Below are positions 20,911 to 62,266 of a stretch of 64,000 nt of DNA, piece by piece; the first letter of the stretch is position 1; each line of letters starts with the position of its first letter. The notes beneath the pieces were generated by a model. It did not search any database, was not told the origin of the DNA, and saw only the letters and a list, made by a program, of their open reading frames with translations. The stretch spans positions 5,642,001 through 5,706,000 of the forward strand of contig NZ_CP030050.1 of the NCBI RefSeq assembly GCF_015291705.1, written 5' to 3'. A program made the position numbers and the translations under genes. This stretch comes from Bradyrhizobium arachidis (GTDB lineage Bacteria > Pseudomonadota > Alphaproteobacteria > Rhizobiales > Xanthobacteraceae).

Positions 20911-20951
20911 GAACATGTATCGAACATATAGTGTCCGTTCATGATTTGTTT
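20911..20951 (+). promoter_or_regulatory. LexA operator and promoter of lexA
   Basis: GAAC-N7-GAAC occupies 20911-20925, a perfect alphaproteobacterial SOS box. A second box, GTTC-N7-GTTT (20937-20951), has one mismatch and the opposite orientation. The first overlaps a candidate promoter (TTGCGG 20906-20911, TATAGT 20927-20932), consistent with LexA autorepression. The start codon is 75 bases further on. Confidence 0.88.
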
Positions 20952-21025
20952 CGAGCATGCAGCGGCTTATCGCTGAATTCAGCGTCTCGGAATCGAACGA
21001 CATCAACCGGGGGATTTTGGTCGAG

Positions 21026-21727
21026 ATGTTAACGCGCAAACAGTACGAGCTCCTGCGGTTCATCAGCGAGCGACTGAAGGAAAGCGGCGTACCGCCCTCC
21101 TTCGACGAGATGAAGGACGCGCTCGATCTGCGCTCGAAATCAGGCATCCATCGCCTGATCACCGCGCTCGAGGAGCGCGGCTTCATCCGCCGCCTGCCCA
21201 ACCGCGCCCGCGCCATCGAGGTGATCAAGCTGCCCGAGCTGCAGGCGGCCGCCGGCAATCGCCGCGGCTTCACGCCGAGCGTCATCGAGGGCAATCTCGG
21301 CAAGGTCCGCACGACCTCCAGCCCGCCTGCGGACGAGGGCGAGCGTCCCGTCGCGGTGCCGGTGATGGGCCGGATCGCGGCCGGCACGCCGATCGAGGCG
21401 TTGCAGACCCGCAGCCACACCATCAGCGTCCCGCCCGATATGCTCGGCTCGGGCGAGCACTACGCGCTCGAAGTGCGCGGCGATTCCATGGTGGAAGCCG
21501 GCATCCTCGACGGCGACATGGCGCTGATCCAGCGCAACGAGAGCGCCGACACCGGCGACATCGTGGTGGCGCTGATCGACGACGAGGAAGCGACCTTGAA
21601 ACGCTTCCGCCGCCGCGGCGCCTCGATCGCGCTCGAGCCCGCCAATGCGGCCTATGAGGTGCGCATCCTGCCGCCGAACCGGGTCAAGATTCAGGGCAAG
21701 CTGATCGGGCTTTATCGGAAGTACTGA
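21026..21727 (+). CDS. lexA: LexA SOS repressor
   Basis: Transcription repressor of DNA-damage genes that cleaves itself when RecA is activated. 233 residues: winged helix-turn-helix about 1-68 ([23 protein letters not shown]), linker about 70-110, then the S24 peptidase domain with cleavage site Ala119-Gly120, nucleophile Ser154 (RGDSMVEAG) and general base Lys192 (EATLKRF). ATG 21026 follows a GGGGGA ribosome site; an upstream in-frame ATG at 20957 would add 23 non-conserved residues. The operator lies just upstream. The same boxes appear at 62115-62147. Confidence 0.97.
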
Positions 21728-58312: not shown

Positions 58313-61300
58313 CTAGAGCTGCTGCACGTCCACGACGCCCGCGACCGCCTTGATCGCACCGGCGATCTGCGGCGAGACCTTGAAGCGGCCGGGCAGCTTC
58401 ATCTCGACCTCGGTCTCGAGGTCGAGCATCATCACCAGCGAGACCTCGCCGTCGCCATTGGAGCGCGGTGCGATGCCGGGGCTGCCGATCTTCGGCGCGG
58501 CACCGTTGCTGGCCGCCATCTCGGGGCCGGCGAGACGCTTGGCGATCGACTCCAGCGGCTTGGTGTCGCGCAGGAAGATGCGCAGGCCCTTCTGCGTCTT
58601 CGCGGCGGCGTCATCGAGCGGCTCGGCATGCAGCACGCGGGCGCGAACGTCCTCGCCCTGCAATTCCGCGCCGAGTTGAAGCAGCACGGCCGCGCCCGGC
58701 TCCAGCACGTCGCGATATTGCGCAAGGCCCTCCGAGAACAGCACCGCCTCGAAATGGCCGGTGGGATCGGACAGCCCCATGATGCCCATCTTGTTGCCGG
58801 TCTTGGTGCGCCGCTCCATGCGCGACACCACGGTCGCAGCGACCTTGCCGGCGGTGGCGCCCGTCTTCACCGCGCGCGAGAACTCGGCCCATGACTGCAC
58901 CCGCAGGCGCTTGAGCACGGTGGCGTAATCGTCGAGCGGATGTCCGGACAGGAAGAAGCCGATCGCGTCATACTCGCGGCGCAGCCGCTCGGCCGGCAGC
59001 CAGGGCTCGATCTGCGGCAGCATGATGGTCGGCGCGTCAGCCGACATGCCGAACATGTCGTTCTGGCCGATCGTCTCGGCCTGATGCGAACGCTGGCAGG
59101 CGGCCAGGATCGCGTCCGCACCGGCAAAGACGCGGGCGCGGTTCGGCTCCAGCGTGTCGAAGGCGCCGGCGGCAGCTAAACTCTCGATGATGCGCTTGTT
59201 GATCGCGCGCGGATTGACCCGCGCGGCGAAGTCGGCGAGCGAGGTGAACAGTCCCCGCCTGGTGCGCTCCTCGATGATCTGTTCGATCGCCTGGATGCCG
59301 ACGCCTTTGAGCGCGGCGAGCGCATAGTAGATGACCTTGTCGCCGACCTCGAAGGTCGCGCCGGAGCGGTTGATGTTCGGCGGCTCGACCTTGATACCGA
59401 GGCGCTGCGCCTCGGAGCGGAATTCGGAGAGCTTGTCCGTGTTGTTGAGATCGAGCGTCATCGACGCCGCGATGAACTCCACGGGATAATGCGCCTTCAT
59501 ATAGGCGGTGTGGTAGGACACCAGCGCATAGGCCGCCGCGTGGCTCTTGTTGAAGCCGTAGTCGGCGAACTTGGCGAGCAGCTCGAAGATGGTCTCGGCC
59601 TGCCCCTTCGGCACGCCATTCTTCACCGCGCCCGCGACGAAGATGTCGCGCTGCTTGTCCATCTCGGCGCGGATCTTCTTGCCCATGGCGCGGCGCAGGA
59701 GGTCGGCGTCGCCGAGCGAATAGCCCGACATCACCTGCGCGATCTGCATCACCTGTTCCTGGTAGATGATGACGCCGAAGGTCTCCTTCAGGATCGGCTC
59801 CAGCACGGGGTGCAGATATTCCGGCTCCTCGTCGCCGTGCTTGCGCGAGCAATAGGTCGGGATGTTCGCCATCGGGCCCGGTCGGTAGAGCGCGACCAGC
59901 GCGATGATGTCCTCGAAACGGTCGGGCCGCATGTCGACCAGCGCGCGGCGCATGCCCTGGCTTTCAACCTGGAACACGCCGACCACCTCGCCGCGCGCCA
60001 GCATCTGGTAACTCTCGGCATCGTCGATCGGCAGCGTGGCGAGATCGACATGGATGTCGCGCGGCTTGAGCAGCTTGCACGCGACGTCGAGCACGGTCAG
60101 CGTCTTCAGGCCGAGGAAGTCGAACTTGACGAGGCCCGCAGGCTCGACCCATTTCATGTTGAACTGGGTCACCGGCATATCCGACTTCGGATCACGGTAC
60201 ATCGGCACGAGTTCGCTCAACGGGCGATCGCCGATCACGATGCCGGCCGCATGGGTCGAGGCGTGGCGGGTCAGGCCTTCGAGGCGCTGGGCGATGTCGA
60301 AGGCGCGCGCCACCACCGGGTCTTCGTCGCGGAACGCCTGGAGCTTCGGCTCGCTCTCGATCGCGGCGGCCAGCGTCACGGGCGCCGCCGGATTCTGCGG
60401 CACCAGTTTTGTCAGCTTGTCGACCTGGCCATAGGGCATCTGCAAGACGCGGCCGACGTCGCGCAGCACGCCGCGCGCCTGCAGCGTACCGAAGGTGATG
60501 ATCTGCGCGACCTGGTCGCGGCCGTAGCGCTCCTGCACGTACTTGATCACCTCGCCGCGGCGGTCCTGGCAGAAGTCGATGTCGAAGTCCGGCATCGAGA
60601 CGCGTTCCGGATTGAGGAAGCGCTCGAACAGCAGGCCGAACTTGATCGGGTCGAGGTCGGTGATGGTCAGCGCCCACGCCACCAGTGAGCCGGCGCCGGA
60701 GCCGCGGCCCGGCCCGACCGGAATGCCGTGCGCCTTGGCCCATTTGATGAAGTCGGACACGATCAGGAAGTAGCCCGCGTACTTCATGCGCATGATGACG
60801 TCGAGCTCGAACGCCAGGCGCTTGCTGTAGTCCTCCTCCGTGGTGCCCTGCGACAGGCCATGGACGCGCAGGCGGTTGGCGAGCCCCTCCTCCGCCTGGC
60901 GCTTCAATTCGGCGGCCTCGACCGCGGCGGCATCGGAGCTGGCGGCGGCGCCGACGGTGAAGAACGGCAGGATCGGCTTGCGCGTCATCGGGCGGAACGA
61001 GCAGCGCTCGGCGATCTCGACCGTCGAGGCCAGCGCCTCCGGAATGTCGGCGAACAGCACCGCCATCTCGGCGCGGGTCTTGAAGCGATGATCCGGCGTG
61101 AGCTGGACGCGATCGGTCTCGGCGATCAGCCGGCCGCCGGCGATGCAGAGCAGCGCGTCATGCGCCTCGTAATCGTCGGTCGCGGCGAAATACGGCTCGT
61201 TGGTCGCAACCAGCGGCAAGCCCTTCGCATAGGCGATGTCGATCAAGCCGCCCTCGATGCGCCGCTCCTTGTCGACGTTGTGGCGCTGCAATTCGATATA

Positions 61301-61816
61301 GAGGCGGTCGCCGAACAGATTGGCCAGACGCTCGCAGCGCGTCGCGGCGAGCTCGGCCATGCCGCCGGCCAGCGCCAGCGAGATCGGCCCGTCCGGTCCG
61401 CCCGTCAGCGCGATCAGGCCCTCGGTCTCGCCGTCGAACCAGTCGAACTTGATGAACGGGGCATGGGTGTCGGGCGATTCGAGGAACGCGCGCGAGTTCA
61501 GCCGCATCAGGCTGCGATAGCCGCGCTCCTGCGCCGCCAGCAGCACCACGCGCGAGGGCCCCATCGCGTTGCGCGCGGTCGGGTCCTGGTCGCCGAAATC
61601 GATCGCCAGTTCCAGGCCGACGATCGGCTGGATGCCGGAGCCCGCCATCTTGTCGGAGAACTCCAGCGCCCCGAACAGATTGTCGGTATCGGTCAGCGCC
61701 AGCGCCGGCTGGTGGTCTTTCTTCGCAAGCTCGGCGAGCTTGGCGATCTTGATCGAGCCCTTGAGCAGCGAATAGGCCGAGTGAACGTGAAGGTGGACAA
61801 ATCCGGCGCTCGGCAT
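58313..61816 (-). CDS. dnaE: DNA polymerase III subunit alpha
   Basis: Replicative polymerase catalytic subunit, 1167 residues. PHP domain at the N-terminus (FVHLHVHSAYSLLKGS), palm with catalytic Asp residues in PDFDIDFCQDRRGEVI near residue 405, fingers and beta-binding region, then tandem helix-hairpin-helix and OB domains at about 950-1050. Length and features are of DnaE1, not the SOS mutagenesis enzyme DnaE2. Upstream, 182 bases away on the same strand, lies a LexA-boxed microprotein gene. Confidence 0.97.
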   Translation of the reverse strand: MPSAGFVHLHVHSAYSLLKGSIKIAKLAELAKKDHQPALALTDTDNLFGALEFSDKMAGSGIQPIVGLELAIDFGDQDPTARNAMGPSRVVLLAAQERGYRSLMRLNSRAFLESPDTHAPFIKFDWFDGETEGLIALTGGPDGPISLALAGGMAELAATRCERLANLFGDRLYIELQRHNVDKERRIEGGLIDIAYAKGLPLVATNEPYFAATDDYEAHDALLCIAGGRLIAETDRVQLTPDHRFKTRAEMAVLFADIPEALASTVEIAERCSFRPMTRKPILPFFTVGAAASSDAAAVEAAELKRQAEEGLANRLRVHGLSQGTTEEDYSKRLAFELDVIMRMKYAGYFLIVSDFIKWAKAHGIPVGPGRGSGAGSLVAWALTITDLDPIKFGLLFERFLNPERVSMPDFDIDFCQDRRGEVIKYVQERYGRDQVAQIITFGTLQARGVLRDVGRVLQMPYGQVDKLTKLVPQNPAAPVTLAAAIESEPKLQAFRDEDPVVARAFDIAQRLEGLTRHASTHAAGIVIGDRPLSELVPMYRDPKSDMPVTQFNMKWVEPAGLVKFDFLGLKTLTVLDVACKLLKPRDIHVDLATLPIDDAESYQMLARGEVVGVFQVESQGMRRALVDMRPDRFEDIIALVALYRPGPMANIPTYCSRKHGDEEPEYLHPVLEPILKETFGVIIYQEQVMQIAQVMSGYSLGDADLLRRAMGKKIRAEMDKQRDIFVAGAVKNGVPKGQAETIFELLAKFADYGFNKSHAAAYALVSYHTAYMKAHYPVEFIAASMTLDLNNTDKLSEFRSEAQRLGIKVEPPNINRSGATFEVGDKVIYYALAALKGVGIQAIEQIIEERTRRGLFTSLADFAARVNPRAINKRIIESLAAAGAFDTLEPNRARVFAGADAILAACQRSHQAETIGQNDMFGMSADAPTIMLPQIEPWLPAERLRREYDAIGFFLSGHPLDDYATVLKRLRVQSWAEFSRAVKTGATAGKVAATVVSRMERRTKTGNKMGIMGLSDPTGHFEAVLFSEGLAQYRDVLEPGAAVLLQLGAELQGEDVRARVLHAEPLDDAAAKTQKGLRIFLRDTKPLESIAKRLAGPEMAASNGAAPKIGSPGIAPRSNGDGEVSLVMMLDLETEVEMKLPGRFKVSPQIAGAIKAVAGVVDVQQL

Positions 61817-61998
61817 GGTCGCGTGACGGCCTCTTGCAGATGGGATGGAGCGGTTGCCGGCTCCTCAAGGCATCATGCACTTGCCCGGCCGACTCGCCTC
61901 ACAATGGTGGGGTGTCGCGCCGCGAGAGTCCACGCCGGACCGGCCGATCCGCCGCGTCGTCCCGCTTTTCCCCAACCGGGCCTGCCGAGAACTGGGAA

Positions 61999-62097
61999 TC
62001 AGAGCTGCGGAATCACCTGCGCCCAGATCGCGATCATCCCGACGAACAGCGTGATCGAGGCGAGTGCGGCGGCTTCTTCCACGAAAATCCTGAACAT
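61999..62097 (-). CDS. SOS-controlled membrane microprotein, SidA-like
   Basis: A 32-residue peptide: MFRIFVEEAAALASITLF, then VGMIAIWAQVIPQL. One membrane helix (about 12-28) follows a short charged N-terminus. ATG 62097 has GGAG six bases upstream; an ATG four codons earlier (62109) has no ribosome site. The promoter is overlaid by two perfect LexA boxes. Size, single helix and SOS control match Caulobacter SidA (29 residues), which blocks division by binding FtsW/FtsN. The sequence resemblance to SidA could not be tested here; function is inferred from features and control. Confidence 0.78.
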   Translation of the reverse strand: MFRIFVEEAAALASITLFVGMIAIWAQVIPQL

Positions 62098-62114
62098 GGC
62101 TGGCTCCATCACTA

Positions 62115-62158
62115 GAACGTATGAAGAACATTGTTCTCATTTCGTTCTTTGGAGTCAA
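62115..62158 (-). promoter_or_regulatory. Promoter with two inverted LexA boxes
   Basis: GAAC-N7-GAAC (62115-62129) and GTTC-N7-GTTC (62133-62147) are both perfect, separated by 3 bases, and together form a dyad. On the minus strand TTGACT (62153-62158) and AACAAT (62130-62135) are spaced by 17 bases, so the boxes cover the spacer, the -10 and the start region. Strong LexA repression is expected. Confidence 0.9.
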
Positions 62159-62210: not shown

Positions 62211-62266
62211 AAAAAAGCCCCGGCCGACGGCCGGGGCTTTCGACGATCGCTCAAAAAGAGCGATCG
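62211..62266 (-). terminator. Double-hairpin terminator of the porin gene
   Basis: Just past the porin stop on the minus strand there is a 9-base stem (62244-62252 with 62258-62266), then a 12-base GC-rich stem (62214-62225 with 62229-62240, loop GAC) followed by six T and more T-rich sequence. It should stop porin transcripts before the LexA-controlled promoter. Confidence 0.93.

Follow-up and report, generated by a model that had tools for sequence, protein, structure and literature searches.

Small division inhibitors of the damage response

PMC4211646 describes Caulobacter SidA as a 29-residue inner-membrane protein that is induced through LexA cleavage and interacts with FtsW and FtsN. 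SidA stops division with FtsZ rings and divisome assembly undisturbed; mutations that overcome this block map to ftsW and ftsI. The same paper presents DidA, also from Caulobacter, as a small membrane inhibitor that is induced by damage and has the FtsW/I/N complex as its target, which is what we propose for the peptide studied here. DidA differs in its induction by DriD, independently of SOS, and in its interaction with FtsN. The variant FtsW(A31K) suppresses SidA and leaves DidA unsuppressed. SulA from E. coli, YneA, DivS, and ChiZ are likewise SOS-induced division inhibitors (PMC4211646). According to that text, they are unrelated genes, and SulA acts on FtsZ.

The window, a stretch of 64,000 nucleotides of Bradyrhizobium arachidis, contains a 32-codon gene close in design to SidA (NCBIfam NF033228). 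Both encode about 30 residues with one hydrophobic helix, and both have a LexA-type box before them and dnaE after them. The differences are of three kinds. The window peptide does not reach the cut-off curated for the SidA model. Its branch presents a conserved tryptophan and an AQVIPQL-type end, whereas SidA presents FVWM. Finally, its operator is doubled with facing boxes, while in the loci found with the SidA model there is a single perfect box, a pair pointing the same way, or no perfect box. The frame very probably encodes a SidA-type cell-division inhibitor, repressed by LexA and induced by damage, that would block the septum via FtsW/FtsI/FtsN.

The peptide gene, its promoter, and its operator

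The gene lies at 61999..62097 on the minus strand, with its ATG at 62097 and the stop codon at 61999-62001. An alternative GTG start 15 bases upstream would give 37 residues. Nevertheless, the alignment with relatives starts at the ATG. A ribosome-binding site, GGAG, is read directly at 62104..62107 (minus strand), six bases before the ATG. The product is, by prediction, a peptide of about 30 residues with one transmembrane helix. Its Kyte-Doolittle maximum over 19 residues is 2.08, and the AlphaFold2 model consists of one helix from residues 2 to 31 (mean pLDDT of 94.1).

The same size, single predicted helix, and LexA-type boxes could also belong to an SOS-induced, membrane-depolarising toxin of the TisB kind, which would slow metabolism and not block division. 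TisB of E. coli has about 29 residues and is under LexA control; like further SOS-induced toxins of the membrane, it resembles the window peptide in size, helix, and control. However, toxins of this type are amphipathic, and the window peptide, with one basic and two acidic residues, has a predicted hydrophobic helix of low moment (0.22). We know of no locus or sequence that they have in common with the window peptide, which shares its locus and a homologous profile with SidA (see below). A toxin of this kind is improbable here, and we retain the SidA-type inhibitor.

A promoter scan located a sigma-70-type promoter, TTGACT-17-AACAAT, at 62130..62158 (minus strand). Two perfect GTTC-N7-GTTC boxes of the LexA type accompany it. 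The ATG-proximal one, which is conserved, lies downstream of the -10 at 62115..62129 (minus strand). The second, 3 bp away at 62133..62147 (plus strand), overlaps the -10 and the spacer. Together they face each other as a 33-bp inverted operator (62115-62147) with the -10 hexamer inside, so the window gene has a LexA-type operator over its promoter. The initial annotation had described a short frame with a ribosome site, one membrane helix, and its own promoter covered by two perfect inverted boxes. Each of these elements was located, the helix by prediction. It had also placed a double terminator upstream. One intrinsic terminator stands, at 62213..62241 (62241-62213 on the minus strand), between the beta-barrel gene and the peptide promoter, where shuffling gives 0.6 expected; the scan found no second one. 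The upstream gene, a porin in that annotation, has a match to PF13505, a family of outer-membrane beta-barrels.

The doubling of the boxes and the position of the -10 inside the operator suggest a tighter silencing than a single box would give. Such silencing would fit a peptide that is lethal if made at the wrong time.

The presumed repressor is encoded in the same window. The DNA-binding domain of LexA (PF01726) lies at 21023..21214 on the plus strand (G000:C1:5663023-5663214 in the genome). As an internal comparison for the operator, a perfect box precedes lexA at 20911..20925 (minus strand), followed by a one-mismatch box at 20937..20951 (plus strand). The lexA gene is 41 kb from the peptide gene. 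Elsewhere in the family, both are also found on one contig at moderate distances, such as about 44 kb (G035), 31 kb (G443), and 25 kb (G077).

Conservation and selection

We fetched 80 named loci by protein, the best 80 of 280 confirmed (79 titled Bradyrhizobium and one titled "Bradyrhizobiaceae bacterium"). In these best 80, the frame is intact in every case. The exact doubled box is present in 79/80, and at least one perfect box in 80/80. The dnaE gene begins 168-271 bp downstream in 79/80, and in the remaining locus the contig ends before dnaE.

The 72 distinct peptide-gene sequences from these loci have a pN/pS of 0.086. Third positions vary in 28 of the 32 codons and second positions in only one. 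Likewise, a same-genus set of nine sequences, including the one from this genome, gives 0.15, against 2.0 and 4.4 in the remaining two frames. The frame at 61999-62097 is a real gene under strong purifying selection. The initial annotation had named a lack of conservation of frame or boxes as grounds for rejecting it, and the contrary was observed.

Single boxes carry little weight by themselves. The window has four against 1.36 expected, a count reached by 3 of 100 shuffles. In the whole genome there are 208, fewer than the 288 of a reversed control pattern, and the single box was rejected as evidence. The doubled operator behaves differently. It has one site in the whole 9.87-Mb genome and 44 sites in 43 of 80 family genomes, all of them 12-55 bp before a peptide of the window-peptide family, and the reversed pattern has none. 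The doubled operator is therefore beyond chance. A chance frame beside a chance box could find an argument in single boxes being no commoner than the control. Nevertheless, selection on the frame and the confinement of the doubled operator to the peptide refute it, and we give it practically no probability.

Relation to the SidA family

The curated SidA model (NF033228, cut-off of 35 bits) does not match the window peptide up to an E value of 10. A search of the peptide's own genome gave no match either, and the best value among 32 relatives of the peptide was 0.024. In the class-wide search, none of the 289 genomes passed the cut-off. By the rule of the curated cut-off, then, the window peptide is not a SidA member. 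The model does find its own group. In the family taken as Caulobacteraceae, it has matches at E ≤ 0.05 in 67 of 80 genomes, and 49 of the 80 pass the cut-off. Three control genomes also match, Caulobacter vibrioides among them, and one is over the cut-off.

We fetched 30 of the SidA-model loci in that family and measured 29; the L127 peptide was missed by the search pattern. All 29 peptides are encoded just upstream of dnaE. A perfect box accompanies 21 of them, and all 29 have a box within one mismatch. The gap between peptide and dnaE is 28-135 bp (28 loci).

Profile comparison with hhalign brings the two groups together. The profile of 22 SidA peptides aligns without gaps with that of 11 window-type peptides (A2, P of 2.9e-6) and with that of a 32-row set (A4, P of 1.7e-6), over 24-26 residues. 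Column shuffles, run on A4 alone, never reached the real score in 150 trials of each of two schemes (25.6 against maxima of 17.5 and 22.7). A4 was hand-picked. Several of its 32 peptides were cut back to the ATG inferred for them, and some peptides of a less typical kind were omitted (for example L236, L239, L249, L252, L254, L257, L269, L279, and L291). The rows of A2 were chosen only by their similarity to the window peptide, and they give the same answer.

A model built from SidA-model peptides only was also run against 463 peptides. The window peptide obtained an E value of 0.0026, and 49 of the best 50 were dnaE-upstream family peptides or candidates. The first rank belongs to L085, which is not near dnaE and had itself been fetched by the SidA model. 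In this and one further test, some high-scoring decoys are true members (L072-L078, L250, L265, L266, L284, and L232 on the reverse strand).

SidA and window-type peptides share the core acidic-x-x-A-L-x-S-x-x-x-F. In the 22 SidA peptides, FVW is invariant. In the window branch, a tryptophan seven residues after the conserved phenylalanine is almost invariant. Given this divergence at the FVW and tryptophan positions, a member of the SidA family could have another direct target, such as FtsN alone, FtsI, or a protein of elongation or polar growth. In favour of this, two-hybrid assays in PMC4211646 show an interaction of DidA with FtsN, but none with FtsW. The core, on the other side, aligns without gaps between both branches. 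We consider another target unlikely, although it is the most probable of the alternatives weighed here, and keep FtsW/FtsI/FtsN as the preferred one.

The comparisons support well that the window peptide is a distant SidA homologue, with the same neighbour and operator type, in a branch outside the curated model. It is homologous to the wider SidA family and stands upstream of dnaE. The equivalence with SidA, first proposed as an inference from size, topology, and control, was largely right. Locus, operator, and profiles together make the homology well supported and the function likely.

Spread through the order and class, and linkage to dnaE

In the window, dnaE (DNA polymerase III alpha subunit, PF07733, with PHP and finger domains) occupies 58313..61816 on the minus strand. 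It follows the end of the peptide gene on the same strand after a gap of 182 bp. A terminator scan of this gap found none.

A single-peptide search of 121 genomes of the order gave matches in 14 at E ≤ 0.1. The 12 best are all upstream of dnaE on the same strand, 11 of them with a perfect box nearby; none of three weaker places is at dnaE. With an 11-row model, the peptide is found in 56 of 80 family genomes, with a gap in the scores between E values of 3e-9 and 1e-4. Class-wide, the matches of this model outside the order were mostly short stretches inside long frames, so it was set aside for that purpose and the survey was re-anchored on dnaE. It then covered 800 bp upstream of dnaE, regardless of peptide sequence.

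For the order, 120 genomes had a dnaE match, and the survey took 80 of them. Set aside were 12 known positives along with G082 and two class-set genomes, G042 and G117, while a further 25 went unfetched. A perfect box is present in 40 of the 80 regions. A hydrophobic frame of 22-50 residues follows a perfect box by 20-100 bp in 35, against three on the opposite strand, none of which resembles the peptide family. Among the 35, L222 at least bears no likeness to the peptide family. The class survey took 80 of 238 genomes with a dnaE match, about one per family and two from the order. Here, 13 regions have a perfect box (12 without the dnaE bases), and eight have a box with a helix frame, against none on the opposite strand. 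Seven of these eight are outside the order and were called by position, helix, and box. GAAC ranks first among 120 non-palindromic 4-base motifs in the order and class sets, and the next ones are mostly overlapping motifs.

Peptides from beyond the order bear only a weak resemblance to the family. A single class region (L193) reaches an E value of 0.001 with A2, and it has no perfect box. Across the 160 survey regions, peptide and box occur together: a perfect box is present in 27 of the 33 regions that carry the peptide and in 25 of the remaining 127. These surveys undercount because of their reach of 800 bp, as some family members are further out (for example L378).

Of greater interest is how widely this peptide family extends. 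We lean towards regarding SidA as no peculiarity of Caulobacter but a single branch of an ancient family of alphaproteobacterial checkpoints. Its members would be division brakes of 25-40 residues at dnaE, governed by LexA and kept or lost together with the operator, which the curated model misses as too short and too diverged. In Bradyrhizobium, the 33-bp facing double box would silence unusually tightly.

Within the family, 24 of 80 genomes have no match to the 11-row model below an E value of 1e-8, and dnaE was found in 21 of them. Model-based absences are overcounted, since three of these genomes (L373, L374, and L378) have diverged peptides with facing boxes at a spacing of 19 bases. In 17 others, no perfect box lies within 1.3 kb of dnaE, and no peptide could be recognised there. 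One further region offered only 174 bases to inspect. We rejected the idea that the gene is absent where LexA is absent, as LexA was found in 76 of the 80 family genomes. With LexA so common and 17 genomes lacking both box and peptide, the gene is dispensable or replaced where it is missing.

These genomes also bear on whether the operator serves the SOS induction of dnaE, with the peptide as a mere leader. The position of dnaE next on the same strand, the gap with no terminator found, and the short gaps of the SidA-model loci are in line with it. However, in the 17 genomes where no peptide was recognised, dnaE has no perfect box within 1.3 kb, and in three family loci the gap between peptide and dnaE is 790-1101 bp. 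Moreover, the amino acid sequence is conserved, and not translation alone. In L232, the peptide points in the direction opposite to dnaE, yet it keeps two boxes upstream of itself, although these are 235-256 bp before its inner ATG. The leader reading is thus very improbable, and the operator appears to be that of the peptide, not of dnaE.

Proposed function

Read from its sequence, the window gene holds every part that the SidA design would need. From this design we infer LexA binding, induction, membrane insertion, an FtsW target, and division arrest. In an undamaged cell, LexA dimers on the two facing boxes would lie over the -10 and the stretch immediately following it. With both boxes occupied, a potentially lethal peptide would be kept off. 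After DNA damage, the cleavage of LexA provoked by RecA would clear both boxes, and the peptide would be made. It would insert as a single helix in the inner membrane and, like Caulobacter SidA, hold the FtsW/FtsI/FtsN complex inactive. No septum would be built until LexA returns.

If this is correct, the peptide is a concrete candidate for the step from damage to division arrest in Bradyrhizobium and many relatives of the order. It would also suggest a checkpoint acting via septum synthesis, and not via FtsZ, across a large group. In legume nodules, some bacteroids cease division and enlarge, so division arrest matters there. The dozens of variants of 25-40 residues represent a natural diversity in which to find the residues that meet FtsW/FtsI/FtsN. 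A short list of genomes without the peptide gene was also obtained.

Additional observations

GANTC sites, which we take to be of the CcrM type, are crowded in the gap between peptide and dnaE. In the named loci, there are 10.2 per kb against 1.7 per kb in the remaining, mostly coding sequence, with base composition uncontrolled. Another GANTC overlaps the -35, where TTGACTC is present in 77 of the 80 named loci (61817-62158 is the corresponding region in the window). These sites hint that methylation during the cell cycle controls dnaE and perhaps also the peptide. As a defining feature, the site at the -35 was not upheld beyond Bradyrhizobium, with 15 of 29 family loci with TTGAC against the 77 of 80.

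G409 has two copies of the peptide with the doubled operator (C427 and C504); either a true duplication or a mixed assembly could account for this. In G476, the family model matches weakly at a second place (C1:1442081-1442170, E of 1.4e-4), which lies away from the main copy and is possibly a paralogue. Finally, outside the window, this genome has a perfect box at G000:C1:3488250-3488264, about 3.2 kb before its second polymerase III alpha domain, presumably as expected for an imuA-imuB-dnaE2 cassette.
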